A stretch of 57,017 nucleotides of DNA from Komagataeibacter swingsii (GTDB taxonomy: Bacteria > Pseudomonadota > Alphaproteobacteria > Acetobacterales > Acetobacteraceae), in the NCBI RefSeq assembly GCF_003207895.1, contig NZ_NKUB01000018.1, positions 1-57,017 on the forward strand, given 5' to 3'. This document shows, in pieces, positions 23,258-40,792 of this stretch (position 1 is the first letter of the stretch; each line of letters starts with the position of its first letter). Position numbers and translations under genes: made by a program. A model generated the notes under the pieces. It was given only the letters and a program-made list of their open reading frames with translations, searched no databases and was not told the origin of the DNA.

Positions 23258-25099
23258 ATGAGCACCTTGTCCGCTACCGTCGGTGATCAGAAGCCGGATT
23301 CTGCGCCCTTACGTTTCAAACGCGGACGTCCGTCGTCGCGGATGCCGCTTGGCATGATATTACTGACCTGTCTGTGCGCCACTTCGATAACGGCCGCGCA
23401 TGCACAGGATAAGGCGGGAGTTGGCAAGGATCCGGCAGACTGGGTCGAGACCGAAACTGGAATTCCCGTAACCGATCTCCTGACCACGCAGAAATGTGGC
23501 GCGTGTCATACGCCAGATGGCAAGGGAAATCTTTCCCGTATTTCGTGGACCCGTACGACACCCGAGGGTTGGTCCCAGACGATCAAGCGTATGGTGAAGC
23601 TCAATGGTCTGTCCATCACGCCGGATGATGCGCGCGCAATAGTCAAATACCTTTCGACCTATCACGGTCTTGCGCCCGAAGAAGCGAAGCCGGTGATGTA
23701 TTTTGCCGAGCATCGCGCCGTGGATGAAACAATTATTCCCAATAATACGATGCGCCAGACATGCGCCAGTTGTCATGCCTTCGCACAGCCGATGTCGTCG
23801 CGTCGTAGCCACCGTGAATGGGCGCTGGTGGAAAACCTGCACAAGGCCATGTATTCAACGGCACAGCGGATATATGAGACCCCGATCAAGGATCACGCCA
23901 ACGAAGAAGGCGAGGCAGAACCGGACAATGTTCCGAAACCCGTGCTTCAGGGGCAGGCAGCACTTGACTGGCTGAGCAAAAATGCACCTGTCAACACGGC
24001 GGAATGGGCGGCGTGGCGGCCACGTATCCGGCCGCCAGATCTGGGCGGAAAATGGCTGGTGGCCGGCAGCATGAGTGGCCATGGACGTTTTGTGGGTGAA
24101 ATGACCATCACACCCAAAGCGCCCGGATCGGATGAATTCATGACCACGACAACCCTGCGTGCGCTTGATGACAACCATACCTATACCCGGACGGGTGTTG
24201 CGCTCGTCTATGCGGGCTATTCATGGCGGGGCACGTCACAGGGGCAGGGGGCGACACAGCCTGGCCATCCGGATGATCCGACAGGCATGATGCGTGAGGC
24301 GATGTGGTTCGCACCGGACCAGACGGCAGGGCAGGGACGTTGGTACTGGGGTGACTATCATGAGTTTGGTCTTGACGTCACGCTGGCGCGTGAAACGAAA
24401 GCGCCCGTTCTTGTCATGGCGTCCCCCGATGCGCTCAGGACCGGTACACAGGAAAAGGAACTGCATCTTTATGGCGCGGATCTGCCAACCGACCTCCAGC
24501 CGCGGGATATTGATTTTGGTGGCGGGGTAAGCGTCCGCAGGATTGTATCCGCATCACCCACGGAAGTGGTGGCTGTGGTTGATGTCGCCAGGGATGCCGT
24601 GGCTGGCATGCGTGATGTTTCCGTGCGTGGCGCAGTTTTGCAGAAGGCCGTGCCGGTCTATTCAGGGATCGATTATATCAAAGTATCGCCTGAAACCGGG
24701 TTGGCCCGTCTGGGTGGTATTAAATATGGTAAGGGATACCAGCAGTTTTCCGCGATCGGATGGTCGAATGGTCCGGATGGCAAGCCAGATACGTCAGACG
24801 ATTTTCCTGTTCATGTCGTAGATGCAGACTGGTCGCTGGCGGAGATGCCAACCGTCACATATGATGATGACATCAGGTTTGTTGGCAAACTTGACCCTGC
24901 TACCGGCTTCTTTACCCCAAATGTGGAAGGACCGGATCCGCAGCGACGCTTCATGCGCAATAATTATGGGGAAGTCTGGGTTGTCGCGAATTCGAAAACA
25001 GAAAAGGACGCGCAAGGCAAACCACTGACAGCTCGGGCCTATCTCGTCACGACGGTGCCTACGTACAAGCGTTGGGATCAGCCGGAGGTTTCAAAATGA
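23258..25099 (+). CDS. qhpA: Quinohemoprotein amine dehydrogenase alpha subunit (diheme)
   Basis: 613 residues with a Sec-type signal (long basic n-region, then MILLTCLCATSITAAHA). Two c-type haem sites, CGACH (C80-H84) and CASCH (C169-H173), lie in the N-terminal cytochrome domain; the remaining ~400 residues form the beta-barrel domains. The enzyme oxidises primary amines to aldehyde and ammonia in the periplasm; electrons pass from the quinone cofactor in the gamma subunit through these haems to an external acceptor. An AGGAGGG ribosome site lies ten bases upstream. It heads the qhpA-D-C-B-G-F-E gene set, whose content and order make the call firm. Confidence 0.95.
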   Translation: MSTLSATVGDQKPDSAPLRFKRGRPSSRMPLGMILLTCLCATSITAAHAQDKAGVGKDPADWVETETGIPVTDLLTTQKCGACHTPDGKGNLSRISWTRTTPEGWSQTIKRMVKLNGLSITPDDARAIVKYLSTYHGLAPEEAKPVMYFAEHRAVDETIIPNNTMRQTCASCHAFAQPMSSRRSHREWALVENLHKAMYSTAQRIYETPIKDHANEEGEAEPDNVPKPVLQGQAALDWLSKNAPVNTAEWAAWRPRIRPPDLGGKWLVAGSMSGHGRFVGEMTITPKAPGSDEFMTTTTLRALDDNHTYTRTGVALVYAGYSWRGTSQGQGATQPGHPDDPTGMMREAMWFAPDQTAGQGRWYWGDYHEFGLDVTLARETKAPVLVMASPDALRTGTQEKELHLYGADLPTDLQPRDIDFGGGVSVRRIVSASPTEVVAVVDVARDAVAGMRDVSVRGAVLQKAVPVYSGIDYIKVSPETGLARLGGIKYGKGYQQFSAIGWSNGPDGKPDTSDDFPVHVVDADWSLAEMPTVTYDDDIRFVGKLDPATGFFTPNVEGPDPQRRFMRNNYGEVWVVANSKTEKDAQGKPLTARAYLVTTVPTYKRWDQPEVSK

Positions 25100-26571
25100 A
25101 CGCTATAGTGGAAGCAGCCCCTCGCGCACCGGCCGTACGCTACAGGACTGGTGAACTGCATGAGTTCGATGCTGCTGGCCAGAACTTTGTCTATCTTGTC
25201 GCGGCTGGCGCCATTTTCATGCTTGATGAAGGTGCATATGCGGTAATCAGACGGCTGGATGATGGCGCGCTGGAACATCATCAACTGGTGGCGGCCCTGA
25301 TGGAAAATGGCTATTCTCATGAGGATGCCATGGACCTCATCCGTGAACTGCTTGCGGTGCAGGGAATTGTTACGGATCAGAGGGACATGGCGGCGTCTGG
25401 GCCTGTTTCGCCACCCGCCGATTTTCCGTTACAGGCACTGGTTCTCAATATTACCAATCAATGTAATCTTGCGTGTACTTACTGTTACGAATTTGGTTCC
25501 GACAAGATCGCGACCCCACACGGCAAGCAGAAATTCATGACGCTGGAAACGGCAAAAATGTCGGTGGATTTCCTTCTGGCGCAATCGCCGGGGCGCAAGG
25601 CGGTTCACATCACCTTCTTTGGTGGTGAAACCCTTATGAATTTTCGCCTGCTGCGTGATGTCGTGTTCCATGCCAGTGAACAGGCGGCGGCGCATGGTAA
25701 GGCGATTACCTTCAGTCTGACCACAAACGCAACCTTGCTGACTGATGAGATTATTGCCTTCCTGTCTGAACACGAAATTGGTGTGACCGTCAGCATGGAT
25801 GGTCCCCCCGACCTGCAGGACCGACACCGCGTTTACAAAAATGGCAAGGGGTCGTACGATGTTATTGAACCACGCTTGCGCAAGCTGATAGCAGCCCACA
25901 GGACCCGTGCCATAACCGCCCGTGTGACACTGAGTGACGGCGTGACCGATGTCAGGCGCATATACCATCATCTGAAAGACGAACTGGGTTTCCATGAAGT
26001 CGGGTTTGCGCCTGTCACCAATTCCGGGAAACAGGACTACGCCATTAACGCAGTCGATATGGACGAAGTACTGCGGGCGTTCAATGAACTGGCCAATGAA
26101 TGGCTGGAAGACGCATTGCAGGGAAAAACACACGGTTTTTCGAATGTTTCGGAAACAATAGGCGAACTGTTCCGGGGCGTGAACAAATCACACCCCTGTG
26201 GCGCGGGCCTGGGGCTATTGGGTGTCAGCGCATCGGGTGATCTTTCGCCCTGTCATCGTTTCACGGATGCCGACACGCATACACTGGGCAATGTCAGAAA
26301 TGGTATTGACGCAGCCAGACGTGTGGATTTTCTGGCGCGGGGGCACGTCGGCACCAAATATGACTGCCAGTCTTGCTGGGCACGTCCATTATGTGCTGGT
26401 GGTTGCCATCACGAGGCATTCGTCCGTTATGGTGATACAGGCCACGCAAACCTGCATTATTGTGACTGGATTCGCGAATGGACGGATACATGTCTTCGGA
26501 TCTATGGCGTCCTCGCTGTGAAAAATCCTGAATTCCTTGATCGTTTTGCCGTGCGGAAGGGTCTGTCATGA
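25096..26571 (+). CDS. qhpD: Radical SAM/SPASM peptide crosslinking maturase QhpD
   Basis: 491 residues from the ATG at 25096, which overlaps the qhpA stop (ATGA). The N-terminal ~100 residues resemble a peptide-recognition region. The radical SAM cluster motif is CNLACTYC (C123, C127, C130), and the FFGGETLMNF segment is typical of sactisynthase-like enzymes. Several Cys near the C-terminus (SCWARPLCAGGCHHEA) fit SPASM auxiliary clusters. In Paracoccus, QhpD forms the three Cys-to-Asp/Glu thioether bonds in the gamma subunit precursor. The substrate gene follows directly and is overlapped by four bases. Confidence 0.95.
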   Translation: MNAIVEAAPRAPAVRYRTGELHEFDAAGQNFVYLVAAGAIFMLDEGAYAVIRRLDDGALEHHQLVAALMENGYSHEDAMDLIRELLAVQGIVTDQRDMAASGPVSPPADFPLQALVLNITNQCNLACTYCYEFGSDKIATPHGKQKFMTLETAKMSVDFLLAQSPGRKAVHITFFGGETLMNFRLLRDVVFHASEQAAAHGKAITFSLTTNATLLTDEIIAFLSEHEIGVTVSMDGPPDLQDRHRVYKNGKGSYDVIEPRLRKLIAAHRTRAITARVTLSDGVTDVRRIYHHLKDELGFHEVGFAPVTNSGKQDYAINAVDMDEVLRAFNELANEWLEDALQGKTHGFSNVSETIGELFRGVNKSHPCGAGLGLLGVSASGDLSPCHRFTDADTHTLGNVRNGIDAARRVDFLARGHVGTKYDCQSCWARPLCAGGCHHEAFVRYGDTGHANLHYCDWIREWTDTCLRIYGVLAVKNPEFLDRFAVRKGLS

Positions 26572-26900
26572 AGCATCTGAAACCGGTTAATCAGAAGGCC
26601 CGGCGTATTGACGACCTTACGTCCTCTACCGACGAGGATTTTGTCGCGCTCCAACATACGCCGCCCCGTCCTCATGTCCCGATGGGATGTACCCTTGCCT
26701 TTTCACCGGGATGGGAAGTTGATGCAGGGGGTGGTACGGCAGGTCTGTGCCAACCCGTCGAACGCGATATTTATGATTGTTATGTTACCTGTTTCTGGCC
26801 GGTGCAGGTAGCAGATCACGTCAATTATTCGCCCGACTGGGCCAGCAACTGTGCATCGGCTACCAAGGACTGGCGTAATCTGGACATTGTTTTTCCCTGA
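26568..26900 (+). CDS. qhpC: Quinohemoprotein amine dehydrogenase gamma subunit precursor (CTQ-bearing)
   Basis: 110 residues: a leader of about 28-34 residues without a hydrophobic signal, then a Cys-rich core. The spacing matches the known crosslinks of the Paracoccus protein with a constant offset of 34: C41-E50, C61-D67 and C75-D83 for the three thioethers, and C71-W77 for the cysteine tryptophylquinone (CTQ) cofactor. All eight residues are present, so the peptide should be fully modifiable. It is modified in the cytoplasm, trimmed by the QhpE protease, exported by QhpF and assembled with alpha and beta subunits in the periplasm. Confidence 0.95.
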   Translation: MKHLKPVNQKARRIDDLTSSTDEDFVALQHTPPRPHVPMGCTLAFSPGWEVDAGGGTAGLCQPVERDIYDCYVTCFWPVQVADHVNYSPDWASNCASATKDWRNLDIVFP

Positions 26901-26989
26901 TCGTCGCGTCCTTTCATTCAATGTTATTTTCAGGCCGTTCCCGGCATGTTTCCGGGGCATGGTCCCCGCTTCGAGGAAGAGCATGTATC

Positions 26990-28081
26990 ATGAATATGCT
27001 TCGTCCCGCCCTTGCACTGTTTGCCTCAGCGTTTGCATTTGTCTCCTCAGCCTGCGCTGGGACAGTGGTACTTGGCGGTTATCCTGATCAGCTTCAGTTT
27101 ATCAATGACATAAATGGCACGGTTGTCCAGAAAGTAACACTAGAAACCGGGCTTCCCGCGAGTATCCAGCTTTCAGCAAATCGCAGCAGGATCTATGTGC
27201 GCACGCTCACGACATCCGGTATTGAAGTGCTGGATGCGACAAGTCACAAGGTACTGACACGGTTCAGCCTTAATACCCCGGTCACGAAATATCGGTTCTC
27301 CGGTGGCATACCGGATGCGAGTGGTCATTATTTTTATGCCACAGGCTGGCGAATGGACAAGGAAATCGACCGCTATCGTTTCAGCAGGCCACAGTATTTC
27401 CAGATCGATATGAATGCCCGGAAAATCATCCGCGCGGTGGATATGGCGGATGAAGATATTTCCGAAAATAGCCGCGGGGCGCTGGCAATTTCACCGGATG
27501 AAAAAATACTCTACGTTTTTGACAAGAAGTTACGGGTTATCAGCACCACAGATTTCAAGGTTATCCAGCGCATTGACCTGGCGAAACCCGATCTGCCCTG
27601 GAAACAGGACATCAGCATGGGAAGCGCCCTTGAAACGCTGCGTGACCCCAGACATTACGTCTCCCTGTTTCAGGCGGAAGACCCCTATATCCATAACAAG
27701 GTCTTCGGGATCGCCCATTTCGATCTTGTAACGCGTAATTTTTCATTCCATCCCGTGGGACCTGCACCCAAAGCTGTTGATCGCCTGCAGGTTACACCAG
27801 ATGGCAGGGATGGTTATACCGTGGTGATTAATGGGGAATATGGGAATCAGCGCTGTGAATTCTGGCATTTTGACCTTAACGCCAACATTGCCATGAACAA
27901 GGCGGAGTTCCCCTGCCGCCGCCGTTTCTATTTTGGCATGTCGGAAGACGGAAAAAAGCTTTATATTTACGGAGCGGGTTTTGACGTCGCGGTTTACGAT
28001 GCAAAATCATTGAAATATGAAACTGACTGGGTGCTGGGAAACGACATTACCATGTCGGGTATCATTACATTAAAACAATGA
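26990..28081 (+). CDS. qhpB: Quinohemoprotein amine dehydrogenase beta subunit (beta-propeller)
   Basis: 363 residues from the ATG at 26990, with GAGGAAGAG about ten bases upstream. A signal peptide (LRPALALFASAFAFVSSACA) is followed by repeating blade-like units (for example LVLD/LYVF strands with YVRTLTTSGIEVLDATSHKV and LYIYGAGFDVAVYDAKSLKYE) consistent with the seven-bladed propeller of this subunit. It cradles the small gamma subunit in the periplasm. It lies 89 bases after qhpC and just before qhpG. A longer start at 26921 would precede the signal peptide by 23 unlikely residues. Confidence 0.92.
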   Translation: MNMLRPALALFASAFAFVSSACAGTVVLGGYPDQLQFINDINGTVVQKVTLETGLPASIQLSANRSRIYVRTLTTSGIEVLDATSHKVLTRFSLNTPVTKYRFSGGIPDASGHYFYATGWRMDKEIDRYRFSRPQYFQIDMNARKIIRAVDMADEDISENSRGALAISPDEKILYVFDKKLRVISTTDFKVIQRIDLAKPDLPWKQDISMGSALETLRDPRHYVSLFQAEDPYIHNKVFGIAHFDLVTRNFSFHPVGPAPKAVDRLQVTPDGRDGYTVVINGEYGNQRCEFWHFDLNANIAMNKAEFPCRRRFYFGMSEDGKKLYIYGAGFDVAVYDAKSLKYETDWVLGNDITMSGIITLKQ

Positions 28082-28133
28082 TATGATGAACAGATACCGT
28101 GATGTATGGTATCTGAATCAGAGGAGTAACCGT

Positions 28134-29177
28134 ATGGTCGTCCCCCCGCTGTCGCGAATGCCTGCTCATGTTACCATTCGGGGTTCGGGCATGGCGGCAC
28201 GGTGTTGCGCCCGGTTGCTGACCCAAAATGGGATTATGACTAAATGCGCGGGCGCGGTGACTTCTACCGGGCCTGCCGTGCTGCTTGGTGAAACCGCGCA
28301 GGTATTGCTGCGTGACTGTATGGGTAAATCATTGCAACAGTCGCGCTATATGCCCGTGACCCGGCGTATCGTTGCATGGGGCGGTCAGGAACCAGTTGTG
28401 GTGCCGCACCGTGGTGCCGCGTTTGCCCCCGGGGCGCTTAATGCCCTGTTCCATCAGCCAGGACGGCAAGAAGCGGATATGATCGGGGCGCCTTTGTTTA
28501 TTGTGCATGGCATCGGGCCATTTCCGAAGTCCCGTCTTCGTCGTTTCGGCAGTCGGCCAGCGACAGCTGCTTCGGTCACACTTCTCCATCCTGAAGACGA
28601 AGATGCATGCTGGATCGAAGCGCTCGATCATGGCTGGCTTTTCATGCTGTCAACCGCACCGGGGCAGGGGTGGTTACTCGGTGTGGGGGCGCCACTGGAT
28701 GATTTATGCCAGATGAGTCGCCATCTCGCCCCCCGGGTGGTAGTGACCGGACAGCCCCAGGGACCATTTGAGACCGCGCCACGGTTGCTTGAATGTCTTG
28801 CTGCCCCCGGTTGGCTTGCCTGTGGCAATGAAGCGATTGCTTTTGATCCCCTGTGTGGTGACGGCACGGCGCAGGCCGCGCGTGAAGCCATTCTTGCCGC
28901 CGCAGTCATTACGGCGATTATGGAATATCCTGACGATCCTCATGCCATGGAGACATTGCTCATGCATTATCGTTCGATGTTGCTGGCATCAATGCGGCGT
29001 CATCTGCGGTTTTGCGCGCAATTTTACAGTATGGGTGGGAACAGCCCCTGGTGGCGCACGCAGATTTCGGCCCTTGCTACGGGTTTTGAATGGTGTTCCG
29101 GACAGCTCGCGGGCCTGCCCCAACCGCGTTATGAACTGCATGGGCTGCGTCTGGTGCCGCGAATGGTTCCCGCGTGA
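28134..29177 (+). CDS. qhpG: FAD-dependent monooxygenase QhpG (tryptophan hydroxylase for CTQ)
   Basis: 347 residues from the ATG at 28134, chosen because GAGGAG lies seven bases upstream; the ATG at 28083 lacks such a site. The N-terminus has a dinucleotide-binding loop (VTIRGSGMAARCCARLL), and the GD-type motif of flavoprotein hydroxylases appears as FDPLCGDGTAQAARE in the C-terminal half. In characterised systems QhpG dihydroxylates the cofactor tryptophan of the crosslinked gamma subunit. Here the target would be W77 of QhpC. It is coupled to the exporter gene by a GTGA overlap. Confidence 0.88.
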   Translation: MVVPPLSRMPAHVTIRGSGMAARCCARLLTQNGIMTKCAGAVTSTGPAVLLGETAQVLLRDCMGKSLQQSRYMPVTRRIVAWGGQEPVVVPHRGAAFAPGALNALFHQPGRQEADMIGAPLFIVHGIGPFPKSRLRRFGSRPATAASVTLLHPEDEDACWIEALDHGWLFMLSTAPGQGWLLGVGAPLDDLCQMSRHLAPRVVVTGQPQGPFETAPRLLECLAAPGWLACGNEAIAFDPLCGDGTAQAAREAILAAAVITAIMEYPDDPHAMETLLMHYRSMLLASMRRHLRFCAQFYSMGGNSPWWRTQISALATGFEWCSGQLAGLPQPRYELHGLRLVPRMVPA

Positions 29178-30874
29178 CGCGGCCATCACCCGTGGCGCAA
29201 TGGCGCAGCTATCGTCTATTGCTGCCATTTCTGCGGCCATATGTGTATTCGCTGCTGTTTGTCGTTGTGGTCAGCCTCATGGCCACATGTCTGGGACTGG
29301 CCCAGCCGTGGTTGTCCAAGCTGATGATCGATCAGGCCTTGCTGCCACGGGATATGACGGCACTGGTCCGGATCGCCGTACTCATGGTGGTGGTGGCAGT
29401 GGCGAATTATGCTCTTAATATCATTGCCAGTTATCGTTATGTAGCCACTTCCGCTGCGATGCTGTTTGACATACGGGCGGCGTTGCTGCGCCATCTGCAA
29501 ACCCTGTCGCCACGTTTCTACAGCCGCTTCCGGCTGGGGGATCTGATGTCGCGGATCAATAGTGACGTAAGCGACATCCAGCGTGTGACTGCGGATACCC
29601 TGCTGTCGGTAATCAGTAATATGATGATGCTGACAGGATGCGTCGGCATCATGCTGTGGCTGGACTGGAAGCTGTTCGTGATCAGTGTGGTGGTCATTCC
29701 CGGTTGCGTGCTGCTTTTTCTTTATTATCAGCGGCGCATTACGGCGCTGACCCGTCAGATGCGGGCGCGTGGGGCCGATCTGGGCTGCATGCTGGTCGAC
29801 AGCCTGATGGGCATGCGGGTGATTACCTCCCTCAATGCAGGGGAACAGGAAGTCTCCCGTTTTCATAAATGCAATACGGCGTTTGTCTCCGTCATGATGC
29901 GAATGCAGGTGGCGTCATTCATGGCCGGAGCGGTTCCCGGCACATTATTGACCGCGACGACCTCTGGCGTGGTGATTTATGGCGGCGCGCAGATCATTAT
30001 GGGCAAGATGACGGTGGGAACACTCGTTGCTTTCATGACCTATCAGATGCGTCTGTTCGGACCTGTTCAGACGCTGATGGGGCTTGTGTCAGGATTGAGT
30101 TCTGCCCGGGTGTCCCTTGCACGTATTCTTGAACTGTTTGAAATGCGGGCTGATGTCGTTGACTCGCCTGATCCTGTCGCATTGACACGGGTGGCGCGGG
30201 AACTGCGTGTCACGGATGTATCGTTGCGCCATGAAACGCGTGAGGTGCTGAAACGCGTCAATCTGCTGGTTCCACAGGGTGCCTTCTGTGCCGTGCTTGG
30301 TCCCAGTGGGGCTGGTAAATCGACCCTTGCGGATCTGATTGTCCGTAATCTTGATCCCGACAGTGGACGGATTACGGTTGATGGCATCGATATACGTGAT
30401 GTGAAGCTGTCCGATGTGCACCGTGAAATACTGCTTGTGGATCAGTCCCCGCATTTGTTCAATGATACGATTCTTGCAAACATTACGTTTGCGTTTCCTG
30501 CGGCAAGCGAGGCTGATGTGGCACGGGTGGTGCGTCTTGCCGGACTGGAACATCTGGTCGCACGGCTGCCCCATGGCTTACGGACCCAGGTGGGGGAGCG
30601 TGGGCTGGCGCTCTCGGCAGGGGAGCGACACAGGGTTGCCCTGGCGCGCGCGTTGCTGCGCCATCCCAGCGTGCTGATTCTTGATGAACCGACCGCAGCA
30701 CTTGATGGGGAGACCGAGCAACTGGTGGCCAAAGGACTGCGTGCGGCATTTCCTGGGACGACACTCATTGTCATAACACATAAACCGGCACTGGCCGCGA
30801 TGGCCGATATGGTTGTCACCCTGAGAGAGGGGCACGTCGATGTAGAACGTCCCGCCCTGCACGCGCATGCTTGA
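29174..30874 (+). CDS. qhpF: ABC exporter QhpF (fused membrane and ATPase domains)
   Basis: 566 residues with a GTG start overlapping the qhpG stop. Six membrane helices (~20-300) are followed by a nucleotide-binding domain: Walker A GPSGAGKSTLADL, signature LSAGERHR, Walker B VLILDEPTAALDGE. The overall form is that of MsbA/peptide-exporter half-transporters acting as homodimers. There is no N-terminal C39 peptidase domain, consistent with leader removal by the separate protease encoded next. Its likely cargo is the modified QhpC gamma subunit, which lacks a Sec signal. Confidence 0.92.
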   Translation: MTRPSPVAQWRSYRLLLPFLRPYVYSLLFVVVVSLMATCLGLAQPWLSKLMIDQALLPRDMTALVRIAVLMVVVAVANYALNIIASYRYVATSAAMLFDIRAALLRHLQTLSPRFYSRFRLGDLMSRINSDVSDIQRVTADTLLSVISNMMMLTGCVGIMLWLDWKLFVISVVVIPGCVLLFLYYQRRITALTRQMRARGADLGCMLVDSLMGMRVITSLNAGEQEVSRFHKCNTAFVSVMMRMQVASFMAGAVPGTLLTATTSGVVIYGGAQIIMGKMTVGTLVAFMTYQMRLFGPVQTLMGLVSGLSSARVSLARILELFEMRADVVDSPDPVALTRVARELRVTDVSLRHETREVLKRVNLLVPQGAFCAVLGPSGAGKSTLADLIVRNLDPDSGRITVDGIDIRDVKLSDVHREILLVDQSPHLFNDTILANITFAFPAASEADVARVVRLAGLEHLVARLPHGLRTQVGERGLALSAGERHRVALARALLRHPSVLILDEPTAALDGETEQLVAKGLRAAFPGTTLIVITHKPALAAMADMVVTLREGHVDVERPALHAHA

Positions 30875-31631
30875 TGCCAGTGATCCGTCATTCGGTCGTC
30901 CGATCGCCCTGCCACCGCTTTTCCCCGGTATGACAGGCGCTGGCGTGCGGATTGCGGTAATTGATAGTGGCGTGCAGGCTATTCATCCGCATATTGACGC
31001 AACCCGACTTGCACCCGGCATCATGATCGGGACGGATGGGCGGCTGGATACAGGTCTGGAAGCCACCTGTGATCAGCTTGGTCATGGTACGGCCGTTATC
31101 GCGGCAATTCAGGAAAAAGCGCCCGATGCCGTCTGTCTGCCCGTAAGGGTTTTCGGTTCCGTGCTGCGTACCAGTGGGGCTGCGCTGGTTACGGCCATCC
31201 ATTGGGCAGTGCGGCAGGAAGTCGATCTGATCAATCTCAGTCTTGGTTCGACCAATCCGGCCCATATGCCCCTATTAAGTCAGGCCATCGGGATGGCAGT
31301 CAACCATGGCGTGAGCGTAATCGCCGCGCGGGATACAGGTGGCAGGCCGTGTTACCCGGGAATGATAAAAGACGTGATCGGGGTTACCCTCGATTGGGAT
31401 ATTCCGCGCACGCACTACCGGATCATGCAGCAGGACGGGGCATGCGTGATTAGCACTGCGGGTTATCCGCGTGCCATTCCCGGGGTGCCGCTTCGACGTA
31501 ATCTTTACGGTGTCAGTTTTGCGGTGGCGCAGGTAACGGGTTTTGCCGCCCTTGCACTGGAACCGATCGCCCGACCGCGATGCAGGCGAAGTCTCGAAAC
31601 AGCACTGAAGGCCGCGTTGGAAGTGATGTGA
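30867..31631 (+). CDS. qhpE: Subtilisin-like leader peptidase QhpE
   Basis: 254 residues, short for a subtilase because there is no signal or propeptide, fitting an intracellular enzyme. The catalytic triad is visible: Asp in AVIDSGV (D33), His in LGHGTAV (H73) and Ser in YGVSFAVAQVTG (S217). In Paracoccus, QhpE cuts the leader off the crosslinked gamma subunit before export. The start overlaps the qhpF end by eight bases. It is the last gene of the operon and converges with the molybdenum hydroxylase gene 43 bases away. Confidence 0.92.
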   Translation: MLDASDPSFGRPIALPPLFPGMTGAGVRIAVIDSGVQAIHPHIDATRLAPGIMIGTDGRLDTGLEATCDQLGHGTAVIAAIQEKAPDAVCLPVRVFGSVLRTSGAALVTAIHWAVRQEVDLINLSLGSTNPAHMPLLSQAIGMAVNHGVSVIAARDTGGRPCYPGMIKDVIGVTLDWDIPRTHYRIMQQDGACVISTAGYPRAIPGVPLRRNLYGVSFAVAQVTGFAALALEPIARPRCRRSLETALKAALEVM

Positions 31632-31674: not shown

Positions 31675-33900
31675 TCAGGTCGGGTCAGAAGTATCCGCGT
31701 CACCGGAAATACGGAAAGGATATCTGCGAAAGCGTTTCCCCGTGGCGGCAAACAGGGCGTTGCCAAGAGCTGGAAATGCCGAAACCGTTCCCACTTCACC
31801 TATGCCGCCCGGTTCAGCGCCACTGTTGATGATATGTACGTCGATGCGTGGAATCTCATTAATTCTCATAAGCTGGTAATTATGAAAATTGCTTTGTTCC
31901 ACGCACCCGTTCCTGATTGTGATTTCACCATATAATGCAGCTGAAAAACCGAATAGCAGGCCGCCTTCCATCTGGGCGATCAGGGAATCGGGATTGATCG
32001 CCATTCCACAATCCACCACGGCTGTGACGCGTACGATCTGTATTGCTGTCGTCGGCAGGACCGAAACTTCCACGACGACGGCGCAATGCGAACCAAAGGC
32101 ATTGTGCAATGATACTCCGCGCCCCGAACCCGGTGGCAGCGGCTGTCCCCACAGGCTTTGCCTTGCAACAAGATCAAGAACGGCCAGCGATCGGGGATTT
32201 TGCGACAGAAGACGCCGTCTGTATTCAATTGGGTCCATGCGGGCTTCAGCCGCCAGCTCATCCATGAAGCTTTCAACGACATAGGCATTATGCGCGGGTC
32301 CGACGCCTCGCCACCAACTGACCGGAACCGGTGTATCCGCCCGTGTCCACATCACGCGCATGTGGGACAGGGTGTATGGCGTATCAACAGCACCGGCCAC
32401 GGCATCCCGGTCCAGCGTGCCCTGTGGCAGCCCACCGGGGGAAAATCTGTCAACCACAGATGGGCCAGTGACATGATGCATCCATGCGACCGGCAGGCCG
32501 TCATCACCCAGTGTGGCGGTCATCCGGTCATGGTATGCGGGCCGGAACAGGTCATGCCGGATATCTTCTTCCCGGGTCCATATGAATTTGACCGGATAGG
32601 AAAGCTGGCACGCAAAGCTCGCGGCCTGTTCCAGTGAATCAACCGCCAGTCTGCGTCCAAAGCTACCGCCGATCATGTAATTGTGGATGTAAACCTTCTC
32701 GCGGGGCAGTTTTGTAATTCTGGCAATGGCGTCCTGCCCGCGGGTGGGCACCTGTGTACCGACCCAGACATCACAGCCATCGGGGCGAACATGGATTGTG
32801 GTATTGATCGGTTCCATGGTGGCATGCGCCAGGAAGGGCAGGTCATAAGTACGTTCGACTTTTTTCCCCTCTGCAAGGGCTGTATCCATTCCCTTATCAT
32901 CATGCGCCATAACCGGTGCGCCATGGGTAGCTGCATCATGCAGGGTCTGCCGCACCTGATCCGTGGACAGGGATGCGTTCGCACCATCGTTCCAGACAAT
33001 CCCGAGGGCGGCCAGCCCCTTGCGGGCAGTCCAGTAGCTTGTCGCGGTGACCGCGACGGCCGAACCGATATTGACGACATCGCGCACGCCGGGCATGGCC
33101 CGTGCCTTGCGCGCATCTACTGACCGGACCGTTCCACCCAGAACCGGACAGGCCATTACGGCGCCAAACGCCATCTTGGGAACACGGACATCAATCCCGA
33201 AAACAGCCTGTCCCGTGATCTTGGCGGGAATGTCAACGCGGGGAATGGATTTTCCCAGCAGCTTCCAGCGTCCCGGTTCCTTGAGGGGGACAGGATTGGG
33301 GACGGGCTGCTTTACGGCGTCGGTAACAAGATCACCATATGTTGCCTGATGGCGTCCCGCCGTATCGCGGACAATACCGTTTTCCGCCATGACATCCGCC
33401 ATGCTGATCCCCCACCTGTTAGCGGCAGCGGCCAGAAGCATCAACCGCGCGGCTGCCCCTGCCTGACGTAGCGGCAGCCAGCCCTTGCGGATGGAGCGCG
33501 AACCACCGGTGGAGAGGGATTTGAGCAGGTCAGGCGAAATATCAGATGTTTCCTGGGGCAGGGCGGTCAGGACATGGACTTTCCCGGGGGCCACTTCAAG
33601 TTCTTCGGCAATCAGCATCGCTTCCGCCGTGTATATTCCCTGTCCCATTTCGATATTGGGAACGATCAGGGATATCTGGTTATCAGCACAGATACGAACG
33701 AAACCGCCAAGCGCGACATAGGGTTCATTATCCGGTCCCGGGGTTTTGGTATCAGCTGCTGCGCCACGGCCCTTCGGAACGGCTGCGAATGCCAGCAGCA
33801 GTCCCCCGCCAATCAGGAAACGTCGTCGGGATGCATCATTCAGGGTGTTCGTGGCAAGGCAGACGAATGAGGGGGCCGTCTTGTCTGATCTGTTTGTCAT
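31675..33900 (-). CDS. Tat-exported molybdopterin oxidoreductase, isoquinoline 1-oxidoreductase beta-like (orphan large subunit)
   Basis: 741 residues of the xanthine dehydrogenase superfamily large-subunit type, close in layout to IorB and the large subunit of acetic-acid-bacterial aldehyde dehydrogenase AldFGH. A twin-arginine signal (SRRRFLIGGGLLLAFAAVP) shows folded, cofactor-loaded export. Cofactor motifs include GGSFGRR and the catalytic Glu in GGIGEVGTVSA near the C-terminus. The usual [2Fe-2S] small subunit and cytochrome subunit genes are absent on both sides, so the partner must be encoded elsewhere or be shared. It converges on the qhp operon; oxidation of the aldehydes made there is an attractive but unproven role. 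Confidence 0.82.
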   Translation of the reverse strand: MTNRSDKTAPSFVCLATNTLNDASRRRFLIGGGLLLAFAAVPKGRGAAADTKTPGPDNEPYVALGGFVRICADNQISLIVPNIEMGQGIYTAEAMLIAEELEVAPGKVHVLTALPQETSDISPDLLKSLSTGGSRSIRKGWLPLRQAGAAARLMLLAAAANRWGISMADVMAENGIVRDTAGRHQATYGDLVTDAVKQPVPNPVPLKEPGRWKLLGKSIPRVDIPAKITGQAVFGIDVRVPKMAFGAVMACPVLGGTVRSVDARKARAMPGVRDVVNIGSAVAVTATSYWTARKGLAALGIVWNDGANASLSTDQVRQTLHDAATHGAPVMAHDDKGMDTALAEGKKVERTYDLPFLAHATMEPINTTIHVRPDGCDVWVGTQVPTRGQDAIARITKLPREKVYIHNYMIGGSFGRRLAVDSLEQAASFACQLSYPVKFIWTREEDIRHDLFRPAYHDRMTATLGDDGLPVAWMHHVTGPSVVDRFSPGGLPQGTLDRDAVAGAVDTPYTLSHMRVMWTRADTPVPVSWWRGVGPAHNAYVVESFMDELAAEARMDPIEYRRRLLSQNPRSLAVLDLVARQSLWGQPLPPGSGRGVSLHNAFGSHCAVVVEVSVLPTTAIQIVRVTAVVDCGMAINPDSLIAQMEGGLLFGFSAALYGEITIRNGCVEQSNFHNYQLMRINEIPRIDVHIINSGAEPGGIGEVGTVSAFPALGNALFAATGKRFRRYPFRISGDADTSDPT

Positions 33901-34273: not shown

Positions 34274-35797
34274 ATGAGAACACGTCTTGCGCTCATGGCT
34301 GCTGCATCGCTGATGCTGCCACTTCTGGCAGGTGGCCATGCTGTTGCCGCACCGACTGGTGATACGCCTTCTTTTCCGAAGGTGCCCCCAACCAAGCCAG
34401 GCGAAATCCCCAAATACATTGATGCTTACACGCCGGGTATCATGAAGACGGAGCCTCTGGACATTCCGGCCGATGTCATGGAACGCCTCAAGGGCCTGCC
34501 TGCCGAGAAAATTGATTTCATCAAAAGCGGCAAGAGCGCGGCCGTTCTTTCGTCAAAGCAGCTTTTCAAGCAGATCAACGAGACATCCTCGCAGCAGGAA
34601 CTGGCGCAGTATGTCGATACCGTGATGACGGTCTACGATCAGGTGCAGTTTCACAAGGGCGTTGATGTGGAAACCATCCCGCTTGATACGAAATCACCCA
34701 GATTCAATGACTGGCATCTACGTCGCCCCGCGGAGCTTGATCCCCCCCGCAAGCCGGGACTGATCGATACATCCCGTTATGTCCGTAGTTATGGATCAGG
34801 ACTGCCGACCTTCGCCGGTTCCCAGATTGCCCTTACCCCGGAAGACCTGAAGGCCGGGAAGGTCGATGTTGCCATCCTGGGCGCCCCCCTGGATATGGGG
34901 TCCGGCTGGCGTGATGCCCGTCACGGACCCAACGCGATGCGCGTCATGCGCGACGGGACTGGTGGCACGGAAGTCAGCAGCATGATTTCGCCCAGCGAAG
35001 AACTGAAAATCGTGGATTACGGTAACGCCGCCATTGACCAGAACAGTACGGAACGCAGTATGCAGGAAGTGCGCCGCATGGTTGGTGAAGTCGCCAAGGC
35101 CGGCGCCATTCCCGTCGTGATCGGTGGCGATCACAGTCTGGAATATCCGGATGTTGCCGCCATGGCCGATGTGTATGGCAAGGGACAGGTCGGTGTCATC
35201 CACTTTGACTCCCATCTTGATACGGGGCGTGGGCGTATTCACCTGCTTGATCATGGTCAGCCCATCTATCGCGCCATGAAGGAAGGGCACATCCGTCCGG
35301 AAAATTATATCCAGGTTGGCATCAAGGCCCATTATTCAAAGGATTATTACGAGTGGGAACGCCTGATCGGCATGCGTTACCATACGATGGCGGAAGTCGA
35401 GAAACATGGCTGGACGGCCGTGATGGAACGCGCCATTCAGGAAGCGAAAAAGAACACGAAATACCTGTGGATCTCGTTTGACGTGGATGTGCTTGATCCC
35501 GCCTTCGAACCCGGAACGGGCACCCCCGTGGCTGGTGGTCTGACCATGCGTGAGGCCATTCCCATCATGCGACGCCTGTGCGCGGAAGCCAATGTCGTTG
35601 GGTTCGACGTTGTGGAACTCGCCCCTTCGCTCGACCCGACCTATCGCAGTGCGTTGAATGCCAACACGATCATGTTCAGCTGCCTGACAGGGCTTGCGAT
35701 GCATAAGAAGGGCATTACCCAGGCCAATTACTTCAGCCCGCTTTCTTCCGAGCATGGGCAGGATAATTATTACGCGACCAAGGGGACGAAGCAGTGA
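34274..35797 (+). CDS. Secreted ureohydrolase (arginase/agmatinase family), metal site intact
   Basis: 507 residues, far longer than the ~300 of typical agmatinases. A signal peptide (RLALMAAASLMLPLLAGGHA) and a ~150-residue N-terminal extension precede the ureohydrolase domain. All six metal ligands of the binuclear Mn site are present: H287 in GGDHS, D312/H314/D316 in FDSHLD, D403/D405 in SFDVDVLDP. Family members hydrolyse guanidino compounds such as agmatine, arginine or guanidinobutyrate to urea plus an amine. Export is unusual, since most members are cytosolic. It is coupled to a second paralogue by a GTGA overlap. Substrate unassigned. Confidence 0.85.
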   Translation: MRTRLALMAAASLMLPLLAGGHAVAAPTGDTPSFPKVPPTKPGEIPKYIDAYTPGIMKTEPLDIPADVMERLKGLPAEKIDFIKSGKSAAVLSSKQLFKQINETSSQQELAQYVDTVMTVYDQVQFHKGVDVETIPLDTKSPRFNDWHLRRPAELDPPRKPGLIDTSRYVRSYGSGLPTFAGSQIALTPEDLKAGKVDVAILGAPLDMGSGWRDARHGPNAMRVMRDGTGGTEVSSMISPSEELKIVDYGNAAIDQNSTERSMQEVRRMVGEVAKAGAIPVVIGGDHSLEYPDVAAMADVYGKGQVGVIHFDSHLDTGRGRIHLLDHGQPIYRAMKEGHIRPENYIQVGIKAHYSKDYYEWERLIGMRYHTMAEVEKHGWTAVMERAIQEAKKNTKYLWISFDVDVLDPAFEPGTGTPVAGGLTMREAIPIMRRLCAEANVVGFDVVELAPSLDPTYRSALNANTIMFSCLTGLAMHKKGITQANYFSPLSSEHGQDNYYATKGTKQ

Positions 35798-37269
35798 TAC
35801 ATCCAGCAAGCTTTCGGACCATGAAACTTCCGTCCCTGTGTCACCGCACCGGTCGCCGTGCGGCCTTGGCCGCACTCACCCTTGCGGGTCTTTCCCCTCT
35901 TGCCGGGCCTGTTGGCGCGTGGGCCGCGACAAGTCCCTCGATCGACGGGCTGACAACAGAACAGAAAGCGTTCATTGCCGATAACTCGGTTCTGGAACGT
36001 TTCCACCTGACACCAGAAAAAATCGAGAACATTCTGGCAGCCAAGTCACCTGATGATGCGCGTAAAGCTGTGTCGGCCATGATGCGCACGATTGAGGCAG
36101 ATAAGTTCCAGCCTGCAAAAGGACCAGCCGAACCAGGCAGATCTGCCCTTGACCCTGACGGGGACATGGCAGCGGTTGAACTGAATACCACCGCTGGGGA
36201 TTTCAATGCCTCGACGGTTCTGCGGCCACCCGCGCTGGATGCGACGCAGCGTGCGCCCGGCCCGTTCAGTGTCAAGCGTTATATGTATGAAACGGACAGT
36301 ATCCCCACCTTTGCCGGGGCACCATTTGCACTGCGTAAGGAGGACCTGATCGCGGGCAAGGTGGATGTCGCCTTTGTCGGTGTGCCGATTGACTTCAGCA
36401 GTGGCTGGCGTGATGCGAAAAATTCAACGGCTGTCCTGCGTGCAATGTATGGTCTGGGTGATTATGACGTCTATGCGGGCGTCAATCCGGGCACCTTGCT
36501 CAACATCGTTGACTACGGCAATTTCGCCGTTGACAGGATGAGTGTTGAACTGTCCATCAGCCATGTTCGCAAAATGGTTGGCGAGATGGTGGATGCAAAG
36601 GTTGTTCCCTTTATCGTCGGGGGGGATCATTCGACCCTGATCCCGGCGGTCGAAGCGATGGCGGACAAATATGGCGCCGGCAGTATCAGCCTGGTCCAGA
36701 TCGATGCACATAATAATGTCGCCCGCGATCAGGCACATTTTTATTCGGATGAGCAGGCGGTGTCCCGCCTCGTTACTGAAGGCAGCGTAAAAGGCGGGTC
36801 GGTTGTCCAGATCGGCACGCGTGGACCCGGTCTGGCTACGTCTGATTTCGAGTGGATGAAAAGCCACGGTATCCATTACCATACCATGGCACAGGTCGAG
36901 ACGAATGGATGGCAGAATGTGGTCGATACAACATTGCATGAAATCGAAGGAGGGCCACAAAACGTCTTTGTTTCCTTTGATATCAGCGCGCTTGACCCGT
37001 CTTATGCCAGCGGTGCGGGGCGGCCAGCTTCAAATGGTCTGACAATGCGGGAGGCCGTGCCGCTTGTCCGGCGCATCTGCGCGGAAACAAAGGTCGTGGG
37101 TTTTGCTATGCTTGATGTCGCCCCCTATCTCGACCTCAGCTATGCAACTGCGCTGAATGCCAATCAGATCATGAATGCCTGCCTGACGGGGGTCGCGATG
37201 CGCAAGATCGGGGTCAAGGGCATAAACTATCATGATTCCCTGACCGTCGGCATGGCCGCAACGCCCTAA
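35794..37269 (+). CDS. Secreted ureohydrolase paralogue lacking two metal ligands (likely pseudoenzyme partner)
   Basis: 491 residues from the GTG at 35794, or 482 from the ATG at 35821. It has an export signal (GRRAALAALTLAGLSPLAG) and the same long extension as the upstream gene, to which it is clearly related. Numbering from the GTG, GGDHS keeps H279 and IDAHNN keeps D304 and H306 but has N308 where the ligand Asp should be. SFDISALDP has S398 in place of the second Asp. Two of six Mn ligands are therefore gone and normal binuclear chemistry is unlikely. Tight coupling suggests a hetero-oligomer with the intact paralogue, as scaffold or regulator (inference). Confidence 0.82.
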   Translation: MIHPASFRTMKLPSLCHRTGRRAALAALTLAGLSPLAGPVGAWAATSPSIDGLTTEQKAFIADNSVLERFHLTPEKIENILAAKSPDDARKAVSAMMRTIEADKFQPAKGPAEPGRSALDPDGDMAAVELNTTAGDFNASTVLRPPALDATQRAPGPFSVKRYMYETDSIPTFAGAPFALRKEDLIAGKVDVAFVGVPIDFSSGWRDAKNSTAVLRAMYGLGDYDVYAGVNPGTLLNIVDYGNFAVDRMSVELSISHVRKMVGEMVDAKVVPFIVGGDHSTLIPAVEAMADKYGAGSISLVQIDAHNNVARDQAHFYSDEQAVSRLVTEGSVKGGSVVQIGTRGPGLATSDFEWMKSHGIHYHTMAQVETNGWQNVVDTTLHEIEGGPQNVFVSFDISALDPSYASGAGRPASNGLTMREAVPLVRRICAETKVVGFAMLDVAPYLDLSYATALNANQIMNACLTGVAMRKIGVKGINYHDSLTVGMAATP

Positions 37270-37362
37270 ACCCAAGATAGCCTGCCAATGTCACTTGACC
37301 TTATGGCGTGGATGGTTTTTCTCGACCGGACCATTGTCAGGCTATTGCAGGGGAGGTCTATC

Positions 37363-37845
37363 GTGTCAGAATGGAGCAGGCACGCCACTATCGGCCGAAT
37401 ACGGTCTGGTTCATGGGTAGTTGGCGCTGTTGTCATCCTGACGATGACCGGCGCCAGCCCCGTTTATGCGGCGCCGCGCGAATTCATCTGTCAGGGAAAA
37501 ACGACGGCGCGCAGCATGTCGGATGAAAAAAGCCATTTGTTCAATGCCGACTTCATTTTCGATCAGGCGGCGCGAAGCTGGGTCAGGACTGATTCCAACA
37601 CCGGGGCGTCCCTGCCGATGTGTGATACCCCTGATTGCACGGTGACGTTCAGTCCAGCCAAGGTCATTGCCCGCACTGGCACGCTGGTGGCGACCTTTGA
37701 CGCGAAGCAGAAAACCTTTGTCGCAGCCGATCTTAAAGATATTGATGGAACAATGGCTGAAATCGTGACCCATGCGCAGTGTCGTGCCGCAACGTCCGCC
37801 CTGTCCGGCACAACGGGCAAGAACGCGCGCTCAGGAAAACGCTGA
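37363..37845 (+). CDS. Small secreted protein of unknown function
   Basis: About 160 residues. I prefer the GTG at 37363 because GGGAGG lies six bases upstream and it directly precedes a clean signal peptide (SWVVGAVVILTMTGASPVYA cut before APREF); the ATG at 37288 lacks these. The mature part has four Cys (FICQG, MCDTPDC, AQCRA), suggesting two disulfides in the periplasm. It follows the ureohydrolase pair by ~90 bases on the same strand and may belong to that unit. No family recognised. Confidence 0.6.
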   Translation: MSEWSRHATIGRIRSGSWVVGAVVILTMTGASPVYAAPREFICQGKTTARSMSDEKSHLFNADFIFDQAARSWVRTDSNTGASLPMCDTPDCTVTFSPAKVIARTGTLVATFDAKQKTFVAADLKDIDGTMAEIVTHAQCRAATSALSGTTGKNARSGKR

Positions 37846-37882: not shown

Positions 37883-38581
37883 TCACGGCTTTTCAGGCAG
37901 GCGGTGTTCCGACCTGCGCTCGCTATAGCGATCGACGAGGTAGTCGGCCCGGTCCCGCAGCAGCCACGTGAACTTCATCAGTTCCTCCATGACATCCACC
38001 ATCCGGTCATAGAGCGGGGACGGCTTCATCCGGTCATCATCCCCAAACTGGGTATAGGCCATCGGTACGCTGGACTGGTTGGGGATGGTGAACATCCGCA
38101 TCCACCGGCCCAGAACCCGCAGGGCGTTGACGGAATTGAAGCTCTGCGATCCGCCGGAGACCTGCATGACCGCCAGCGTGCGGCCCTGGGTCGGGCGGAT
38201 AGCCCCTTCGGACAATGGCAGCCAGTCGATCTGGTTCTTGAACACGGCGGTGATGTTGCCGTGCCGTTCAGGGCTGCACCAGACCTGGCCTTCCGACCAG
38301 ATCGACAGTTCCCGCAGTTCCTGCACTTTCGGATGCGTGGCAGGCACGGAATCCACTATCGGCAGGCCGGCCGGGTCGAATACCCGCGTTTCCGCGCCGA
38401 GGACATTCAGGATGCGCTCCGCCTCCAGCACCAGCAGGCGGCTGAACGAGCGTGGCCGCAGCGAGCCATAGAGCAGCAGGATGCGCGGCGGGTGGCCAAC
38501 CCGTGGCAGCGGCTCAAGCCGCGCGAGGTCGACCCGTTCGAGGTATTCCGGGTGCAGGGCGGGCAGGTCGGGGTTGGTCAT
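37883..38581 (-). CDS. arsH: Arsenical resistance flavoprotein ArsH
   Basis: 232 residues from the ATG at 38581 (AAAGGAG upstream). It is an NADPH-dependent FMN reductase-type flavodoxin fold: phosphate-binding loop [15 protein letters not shown] and the segment [18 protein letters not shown], characteristic of ArsH. The enzyme oxidises trivalent organoarsenicals to less toxic pentavalent forms or acts as a quinone reductase. It is the last gene of arsRCBH, 23 bases after arsB. A longer frame to 38746 would run into arsB and is rejected. Confidence 0.9.
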
Positions 38582-38604
38582 TGCGGCAGCGTCTCCTTTG
38601 CCTG

Positions 38605-39899
<1,295 letters not shown>

Positions 39900-39900
<1 letters not shown>

Positions 39901-40322
39901 CAGACGATCCGCTTTCCAGCCGCGTCCACGATCTTCTCACCGTCCTCCCTGGCAAACGCGCCGCGCTGCGGGGCGGGAAGAATGTCCAGCACCGTCTCGG
40001 ATGGACGGCACAGCGCAACACCGAGCGGAGTGGCAACGATGGGCCGGTTGATCAGGATCGGATGTGCGATCATGGCGTCGATCAGCGCGTCATCCGTCAG
40101 GGCCGGATTATCAAGGCCGAGTTCATGAAAGGGCGTGCCCTTTTCCCGCAGCACCGAGCGCACCGGGATTTTCATACGGGCGATCAGATCGACCAGTTCC
40201 GCACGGCCGGGCGGTGTTTCCAGATAGGCGATGACCGTCGGCTCGATCCCGGCATTGCGGATCATCGCCAGCACGTTGCGTGATGTGCCGCAGGCCGGGT
40301 TATGCCAGATCGTGACGGTCAT
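39900..40322 (-). CDS. arsC: Glutaredoxin-dependent arsenate reductase ArsC
   Basis: 140 residues from the ATG at 40322. Active-site Cys in [10 protein letters not shown] (C11) and the Arg-containing C-terminal segment ([19 protein letters not shown]) define the R773-type ArsC family. It reduces arsenate to arsenite for export by ArsB, with glutathione/glutaredoxin as electron source. Its start overlaps the arsR stop (ATGA). The in-frame upstream ATG at 40403 would add arsR-overlapping residues and is not used. Confidence 0.93.
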
Positions 40323-40672
40323 GGGCAGGATTCCGTAGCGGGGCAACATGAGACCAGGTTCGCGAGAAGGGGCGCGCAGAGTTCGGGACTGCTCGCGCAG
40401 CAATCCCTGACAAGGAAGACCATCAGCGCCCGTAGCCGCGCCAGACTGGCGCGATAGATGATCAGGCGGCTATGGCGTCGTGAGGTCAGCAGGCCGGCAC
40501 GGCTCAGGATCGCGAGGTGGGTCGAGATGGTGTTCTGCGGGATATCGAGATGGCGCGCGACGTCTCCGGCGGGCAGACCGTCCGGTTCATGGCGCACCAG
40601 CAGGCGGAAGATATCCAGCCGCGTGGACTGGGACAGGGCGCTGAGCGCGGCAAGGGCTGATTCCATATCCAT
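40319..40672 (-). CDS. arsR: ArsR-family metalloregulatory repressor
   Basis: 117 residues from the ATG at 40672 (or 115 from 40666): a winged helix-turn-helix (LAALSALSQSTRLDIFRLL, then VARHLDIPQNTISTHLAILSRAGLL). The classic ELCVCD metal site of the alpha3 helix is missing. Instead there is a Cys-rich tail (DCCASSPELC, and CCPATESC), a layout like the Acidithiobacillus-type ArsR that senses As(III) near the C-terminus. It represses arsRCBH; a perfect dyad overlaps its own start codon. The frame continues open upstream to 40744 without a good ribosome site. Confidence 0.9.
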   Translation of the reverse strand: MDMESALAALSALSQSTRLDIFRLLVRHEPDGLPAGDVARHLDIPQNTISTHLAILSRAGLLTSRRHSRLIIYRASLARLRALMVFLVRDCCASSPELCAPLLANLVSCCPATESCP

Positions 40673-40694
40673 ATATCCTTGATTGTGGATATAT
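40671..40694 (-). promoter_or_regulatory. Probable ArsR operator
   Basis: ATATATCC (40671-40678) and GGATATAT (40687-40694) are perfect inverted copies around an 8-base spacer. This size and symmetry fits ArsR/SmtB operators. It touches the arsR start codon and covers the ribosome site, so bound repressor would block initiation directly. Confidence 0.65.
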
Positions 40695-40792
40695 AAAATA
40701 ATGTCAATCCCTGTTCTGGCACGCGGTTTCGCGCGTTCACACAAAAGCCATGAGGGCCTGTATTCCTTACCCTGCTTGTCCGTGGAGGCATC

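Follow-up and report, generated by a model that had tools for sequence, protein, structure and literature searches.

The contig NZ_NKUB01000018.1 of Komagataeibacter swingsii (GCF_003207895.1), taken here in its entirety as the window of 57,017 bases from a genome of 3.73 Mb in 113 contigs, carries two overlapping paralogous genes, A and B, which encode an exported-looking, catalytic-looking ureohydrolase chain and an exported-looking pseudo-ureohydrolase, respectively. We propose, with a probability of roughly 0.6, that A and B constitute an exported enzyme-pseudoenzyme complex, a proposal built on the fold, the metal ligands, a fixed B signature, gene adjacency, co-divergence, purifying selection and signal-like N termini, all read from the sequences. 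The two products would form a single exported hetero-oligomeric ureohydrolase of predicted stoichiometry, in which A would hold a two-metal site and hydrolyse a guanidino group to urea, while B would be an obligate pseudo-subunit kept for the assembly, the stability or the shaping of the active site of A. Residence in the periplasm and the nature of the metal are likewise predicted.

Gene A (34274-35797, forward strand) codes for 507 amino acids with a PF00491 domain (Bitscore: 262; AlphaFold2 mean predicted local distance difference test score, pLDDT: 87.4) and gene B (35794-37269, forward strand) for 491 amino acids with the same domain (Bitscore: 177; mean pLDDT: 84.0). The genes overlap by 4 bases, with the GTG start of B sitting over the TGA stop of A, and an alternative in-frame ATG start of B is found at codon 10 (35821); promoter and terminator scans gave results near chance. 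The two proteins share 42% identity across 363 columns. The PF00491 domain and the six His/Asp metal ligands of A (H287, D312, H314, D316, D403 and D405) place it in the arginase/ureohydrolase superfamily, to which B also belongs through its PF00491 domain and the arginase fold retained in its predicted model. The equivalent ligand positions of B are occupied by H279, D304, H306, N308, D396 and S398, and as such B lacks the six-ligand set of an active ureohydrolase; its residues at the active-site positions are N308, D319, S398, R410 and D441. An earlier reading of this DNA (the original prediction) had described an overlapping pair of paralogues with export signals and N-terminal extensions, with six intact ligands in the first and Asn and Ser in place of two ligand Asp residues in the second, and the alignments bear out this description, including the residue positions given for the ligands.

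The A protein scores below the cut-offs of the NCBIfam agmatinase models (TIGR01230: 149.5 against 174.3; NF002564: 204.3 against 302). Its top Foldseek match in the PDB is the guanidinopropionase 3niq, and its top PDB sequence match, 7esr, likens it to the guanidine hydrolase GdmH and the Nitrospira guanidinase. Guanidinopropionase, guanidinobutyrase, agmatinases, guanidinase and metformin hydrolase are among the best 50 Foldseek PDB matches listed for A and B alike, and A shares the arginase fold and the two-metal ligand set with SpeB, guanidinobutyrase and guanidinopropionase, which are among the closest solved folds. The latter three are single-gene homo-oligomers that are not known to carry an export signal, and GdmH and the Nitrospira guanidinase are also single-gene enzymes, located in the cytosol. 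Among named species, the nearest orthologues of the window pair are found in Gluconacetobacter (117-row tree). A second A/B pair (P0004, P0003; locus L007) is present on another contig of the same genome, as are two more PF00491 genes with all six ligands. This second pair (L007 7734-15126) is divergent from genes for a hydantoinase A-like protein, an S-Me-THD-like (DUF917) protein and a cytosine/purine permease.

Relatives were collected with a fragment alignment of the two A proteins, run against a single genome of each species; the best 80 of 100 stretches gave 77 loci, an incomplete set gathered via A, which together with L007, L037 and L040 makes up a set of 80 loci. Duplicate loci (L001, L002, L005, L006, L010, L011 and L036), the duplicates of L007 and a fragment of a broken third gene of L047 were dropped. 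As judged by the ligands, 31 of the 80 loci contain a B gene and 49 do not. The former show the gene orders AB (11 loci), ABA (8), BA (7), ABAB (2), AAB (1), AAAB (1) and, in L047, AB accompanied by a broken third gene, the BA order being an artefact in L007 (minus strand) and L083 (partner outside the locus), while the latter show A (43), AA (5) or a cut gene only (L056, counted as lacking B). Loci counted as lacking B may have one elsewhere in the genome, as L066 shares its contig with the pair locus L048, and L065 stops directly after A, so that its B may be cut off. Tandem A-B-A-B genes followed by PpiC and HupE genes are observed in the Pseudohongiella loci L064 (3760-11423) and L082. Two full-ligand A genes per locus, mostly in tandem and often beside urease genes, occur in L061, L078, L080, L087, L090 and L117, the second A of L090 having been dropped by the gene caller; hetero-oligomers of two active chains are possible in such loci.

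The replacement of active-site residues follows a fixed pattern throughout the B family. Among 99 A, 34 B and 22 ordinary ureohydrolases aligned together, with near-copies left in, the six ligands are intact in all 99 A proteins and in none of the 34 B proteins. In A numbering, D405 is replaced by Ser (34/34; S398 in the window B), H327 by Asp (34/34; D319), T417 by Arg (33/34; R410) and E448 by Asp (33/34; D441), positions which we take to be D234, H141, T246 and E277 of rat arginase I. Ordinary ureohydrolases carry His at 327 (20/22), Thr at 417 (18/22) and Glu at 448 (22/22). Two ligands, H314 and D403, are kept in every B, while H287, D312 and D316 are kept in 26, 22 and 20 of the 34, respectively, and several B proteins, such as some of Sphingobium, differ from A at only one ligand of the six. 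The two ligand changes reported in the original prediction are thus both real, the Ser for D405 being a trait of the entire family; N308, by comparison, is an additional change specific to this lineage (the B of the second pair has Glu and Ser at the N308 and S398 positions), and the replacements of His, Thr and Glu had escaped notice. Since the signature residues are fixed across the B family, B did not decay at random; the pattern is that of one common active-site replacement followed by drift of other ligands in some lineages. The identical replacement of the active site throughout the family suggests that B, instead of being a failing enzyme, survives as a structural partner.

The two genes also behave as a unit, in agreement with the proposed check on their co-occurrence in other genomes. 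A same-strand A adjoins every one of the 33 B genes in the collected loci, including that of L083, where the neighbouring A lies beyond the locus edge and has all six ligands. In 32 of the 33, B overlaps A or sits at most 13 bases away on the same strand, some of the overlaps being inflated by open reading frame (ORF) starts called too early. Pairwise distances of A and B are strongly correlated (Mantel r = 0.934 for 20 selected pairs, against at most 0.47 in 5000 permutations). The ratio of nonsynonymous to synonymous substitution rates (dN/dS) ranges from 0.07 to 0.18 for B and from 0.05 to 0.09 for A (five comparisons per chain; for either chain, dS is saturated in one comparison and the changes are very few in one), and B is by this measure under purifying selection. 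When 385 alphaproteobacterial genomes and 298 genomes of the family of the genome G066 were searched with B as query, B genes were found in G000 (two), G785, G064 and G066, each adjoining an A; a B without an adjacent A was not found among the B examined. At an e-value of 1e-60, 2/385 alphaproteobacterial genomes match (G000 and G494, the latter through an A), as do 6/298 genomes of the G066 family, three of them with B; at most 4 or 5 candidates were scored per genome. Among the best 40 of 489 matching plasmid records, one clear pair is present, on a Novosphingobium megaplasmid.

Both proteins carry a long N-terminal extension, with the arginase domain beginning at residue 198 in A and residue 191 in B by Pfam, and the AlphaFold2 models place helices in the extension of both chains with mostly high confidence. 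A region aligned to residues 66-124 of A is found in 87/99 A and 33/34 B, and in 0/24 ordinary or metformin proteins. Signal-like segments are predicted at 34274-34351 for A and at 35821-35928 for B from its in-frame ATG (both on the forward strand, with ends set by eye), the latter including a pair of arginines and being compatible with either Sec or Tat. These predictions derive from our own heuristic, which looks for an uncharged run of hydrophobic residues N-terminal to the family core, rather than from SignalP. Such a stretch is present in 93/99 A, 33/34 B, 0/22 ordinary ureohydrolases and 0/2 metformin hydrolase chains, the controls offering few residues in this region (median 9) and the single failing B being cut by a locus edge. 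A looser version detects 92/99 A, 31/34 B and 2/22 controls; at least one of these detections (L109) is false, the stretch lying within the domain. The heuristic does not separate the periplasm from the outer surface.

An arrangement of active and inactive chains in one oligomer, regarded as new in the original prediction, has a precedent. The metformin and dimethylguanidine hydrolases described in 2024 are hexamers of active and inactive ureohydrolase chains (PMC11271267, PMC11399263, PMC11647477), with metal reported in the alpha chain only (PMC11399263, PMC11271267), and as such the pairing of a live and a dead ureohydrolase is already known. Like MetCaCb/MfmAB/MefH and DmgH, the A/B locus consists of two adjacent ureohydrolase genes, one of which encodes the full ligand set, and the metformin pair has in common with part of the collected loci a neighbouring HupE-like gene. 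The co-assembly demonstrated for metformin hydrolase, an alpha2beta4 hexamer, is, however, predicted for A/B, and the sequences differ considerably, with 26% identity between A and MetCa and 24% between B and MetCb. The metformin chains have neither such an N-terminal extension nor a signal-like stretch, and HypA and HypB genes adjoin the metformin pair, unlike the window pair, beside which neither was found among the 12 window genes scanned (not all small ORFs were included). Five of the six ligands are changed in MetCb in our alignment (four of six according to PMC11399263) and its active-site Glu is kept, whereas B keeps H314 and D403 and has lost the active-site His, Thr and Glu. A set of 56 homologous arginase pairs has been reported, with a MetCb clade showing three to five ligand changes (PMC11271267), and some of these pairs may belong to the exported A/B family.

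Phylogenetic analysis points to a separate origin of the A/B pair. In a tree of the 117 rows that remained of 157 after thinning at 86% identity, B forms a single clade of 25 rows within the exported A family (Shimodaira-Hasegawa-like approximate likelihood ratio test, SH-aLRT: 100), and it is again one clade (SH-aLRT: 99) in a second tree with masked active-site columns and four long-branch rows removed; both were quick searches without bootstrap. The metformin chains, represented in the trees by one pair from plasmid pMET-2 (accession taken from PMC9800807; see also PMC9699525), cluster together (99) on a branch apart from A and B, their exact place being unsure on account of long branches. 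A and B thus do not fall with MetCa and MetCb, and a single lineage of B and MetCb was rejected on the basis of this tree position and the approximately unbiased test (p = 0.00046). The novelty of A/B relative to metformin hydrolase lies in an export predicted from sequence, an origin that is separate in our trees and a different fixed dead site. Among the titles and abstract openings listed from open-licence papers, none dealt with a comparable agmatinase or arginase exported by bacteria.

Several other roles for B can be considered. It could be an exported binding or sensor protein of ureohydrolase descent that acts alone rather than in a complex with A, which would fit its retained predicted fold, its conserved yet altered pocket and a lipobox-like Cys in L044, L064, L077 and L082 (7/34 B are picked out by the loose test, as are 3/99 A and 1/22 controls). 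The overlapping genes, the co-divergence of A and B and the lack of a lone B among those examined make this unlikely. A role as an assembly or metal-loading chaperone that is absent from the final enzyme would account for the adjacency and for the inactivity of the metformin hydrolase alpha chain without beta (PMC11271267), yet we consider it quite unlikely, as in that parallel the partner chain remains in the hexamer (PMC11271267, PMC11399263). That B is itself catalytically active, with one metal or a different chemistry, draws some support from the B proteins that deviate from A at a single ligand, but is very improbable given that almost every B has, in addition, lost the usual active-site His, Thr and Glu, and that the B proteins vary at three of the six ligand positions. 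Finally, the window B exceeds its nearest relatives by one ligand change and B evolves faster than A, as might be expected of a decaying duplicate. This was the case named in the original prediction as contrary to its proposal, namely that homologues of B would commonly be full-ligand proteins and the window copy an isolated decay; no such homologue occurs among the 34 B, and the conservation of the signature across several proteobacterial orders, together with dN/dS well below 1, renders isolated decay extremely improbable.

An operon for a quinohemoprotein amine dehydrogenase (QHNDH) is located upstream of A/B, as a neighbour that may be linked to the A/B enzyme by pathway without belonging to it. 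All on the forward strand, its genes encode QhpA, the alpha subunit (23258-25099; TIGR03908, 512.7 bits; cut-off: 274.35), QhpD, a radical SAM maturase (25072-26571; TIGR03906, 658 bits; cut-off: 453), QhpC, the gamma subunit (26568-26900; PF08992, over the cut-off), and QhpE, a subtilisin-like processing protease (30867-31631; NF049966, 168.3 bits; cut-off: 165). Weaker evidence identifies a probable QhpB beta subunit (26921-28081; TIGR03907 below cut-off, e-value: 1.4e-13; ORFs close to QhpA in three loci share at most 50% identity with it), a probable QhpG flavoprotein (28083-29177; NF049967 below cut-off, e-value: 1.4e-13; no homologue in the collected loci) and an ATP-binding cassette (ABC) exporter that by position is probably QhpF (29174-30874; PF00664, PF00005). 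QHNDH is described as being made in the periplasm and as deaminating aliphatic primary amines (PMC7876137). This genome alone, of 249 Acetobacteraceae genomes, passes the QhpA cut-off, 23 others giving weak partial matches, and the 89% identity of QhpC over 110 amino acids to a Novosphingobium album homologue suggests that the qhp genes (23258-31631) were acquired by transfer.

Upstream of the operon, a TonB-dependent receptor is encoded (20465-22975, forward strand; PF00593), which has homologues in 22 loci and shares at most 53% identity with the receptors encoded elsewhere in loci of the exported family. Between the qhp genes and A, the reverse strand encodes a molybdenum (Mo) hydroxylase large subunit, possibly an aldehyde oxidase (31675-33900; PF20256, PF02738), with an RR signal-like start recognized by eye and homologues in 16 loci, of which the top three by identity reach 35-37%. 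A 2Fe-2S partner was not noticed beside this gene, and a genome-wide search for one was not made; homologues with such a partner adjoin A-urease loci. The urease alpha gene of this genome is located on another contig. Downstream of B, a small ORF with a hydrophobic segment seen by eye (37288-37845, forward strand; no Pfam match) has a homologue after A/B in Gluconacetobacter johannae and G. azotocaptans, and the region 37883-40744 resembles, by eye, an arsenic resistance cluster, in which a flavin mononucleotide (FMN) reductase has a Pfam match.

In the collected loci, neighbours were labelled by BLAST against seeds, most of which were Pfam-checked, the label QhpF denoting an ABC ATPase match only. 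Genes for QhpA and QhpD follow the pair in 12/31 loci with B and in 0/49 without, the window, with its qhp genes upstream, being a further case of QhpA near the pair, and genome-wide QhpA matches over the cut-off occur in 14/28 genomes with a pair at the locus and 5/21 without (50 of the 77 loci were taken, omitting the genome of L056, with fragments below the cut-off and a truncated locus). A TonB receptor is nearby in 15/31 loci with B and 7/49 without, PpiC in 12/31 and 20/49, HupE in 10/31 and 18/49, and the Mo-hydroxylase in 1/31 and 15/49, respectively. In L055 and other loci, genes for a TPR-sulfotransferase, a PpiC-type isomerase and HupE recur beside the exported ureohydrolases, and genes resembling a urea importer of the ABC type lie near an exported A in L040, L091 and L100 (Peripla_BP_5 in L091, permease family in L100). 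The HupE neighbours provide a hint that the metal of A may be nickel, although HupE may serve urease instead. In the closest orthologues, from G. johannae and G. azotocaptans, urease genes follow the window-type pair.

From this context we would tentatively name a guanidino amine, or an acid made from it (agmatine, guanidinobutyrate), as the substrate, at somewhat under even odds. A pathway in this genome can be sketched with similar reserve: a guanidino amine such as agmatine would be handled outside the cytoplasm by A/B and, before or after it, by the amine dehydrogenase and the possible Mo aldehyde oxidase, yielding a carbon residue and urea, the latter a substrate for urease. Free guanidine or an alkylguanidine, with the amine dehydrogenase as an accidental neighbour, is a rather unlikely substrate that would be equally compatible with a pseudo-subunit role of B; the guanidine hydrolases among the sequence and fold matches and the HupE-type genes in 28/80 loci, as in the metformin cluster, speak for it, while the recurrence of a TonB receptor, amine dehydrogenase or Mo-hydroxylase near the exported family and the lack of HypA/HypB among the scanned window genes speak against it. 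In arginases, the active-site Glu holds the guanidinium group. A doubtful extension would join a second evolution of the ureohydrolase enzyme-pseudoenzyme pair, in the exported family, with two further steps. R410, in place of the Thr of the GTGTP loop, together with Asp for Glu, would put the guanidinium of B itself at the substrate place, a built-in substrate mimic that would lock the dead site, and the pair would combine with the TonB receptor, amine dehydrogenase, Mo-hydroxylase and urease into a periplasmic route from guanidino amine to urea.

A number of observations weigh against the proposed complex and its context. No B is seen in 49 of the 80 loci, and A-type chains can therefore probably work alone in other lineages. 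The co-divergence stems partly from shared genome inheritance, the export call depends on the heuristic, and the B-query search added G785 as the only new genome with B, G066 having been the chosen centre and G064 being already known. The 12 loci with QhpA are related, nine bearing the name Sphingobium or Novosphingobium and three being looser-named metagenome-assembled genomes, and represent few independent events. Urease alpha is commoner near A in loci without B (19/49) than in those with B (4/31). QhpA had no match genome-wide in G. johannae or G. azotocaptans, the genomes of the closest orthologues, and the amine dehydrogenase is therefore not required. A guanidine riboswitch was not found in six sources at the gathering threshold, the three matches of that scan all being 5_ureB_sRNA (L041, L044 and L063), a result that also counts against guanidine as the substrate.

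If the proposed exported complex of A and B is correct, the pairing of a live and a dead ureohydrolase would be a recurrent solution rather than something peculiar to the recent metformin enzyme, and could be studied in a family that spans several proteobacterial orders and carries a fixed dead-site signature. It would furthermore place the breakdown of guanidino compounds outside the cytoplasm, tied to amine oxidation and urease, and would provide concrete candidates for the function of genes that are named only as general members of the arginase family.

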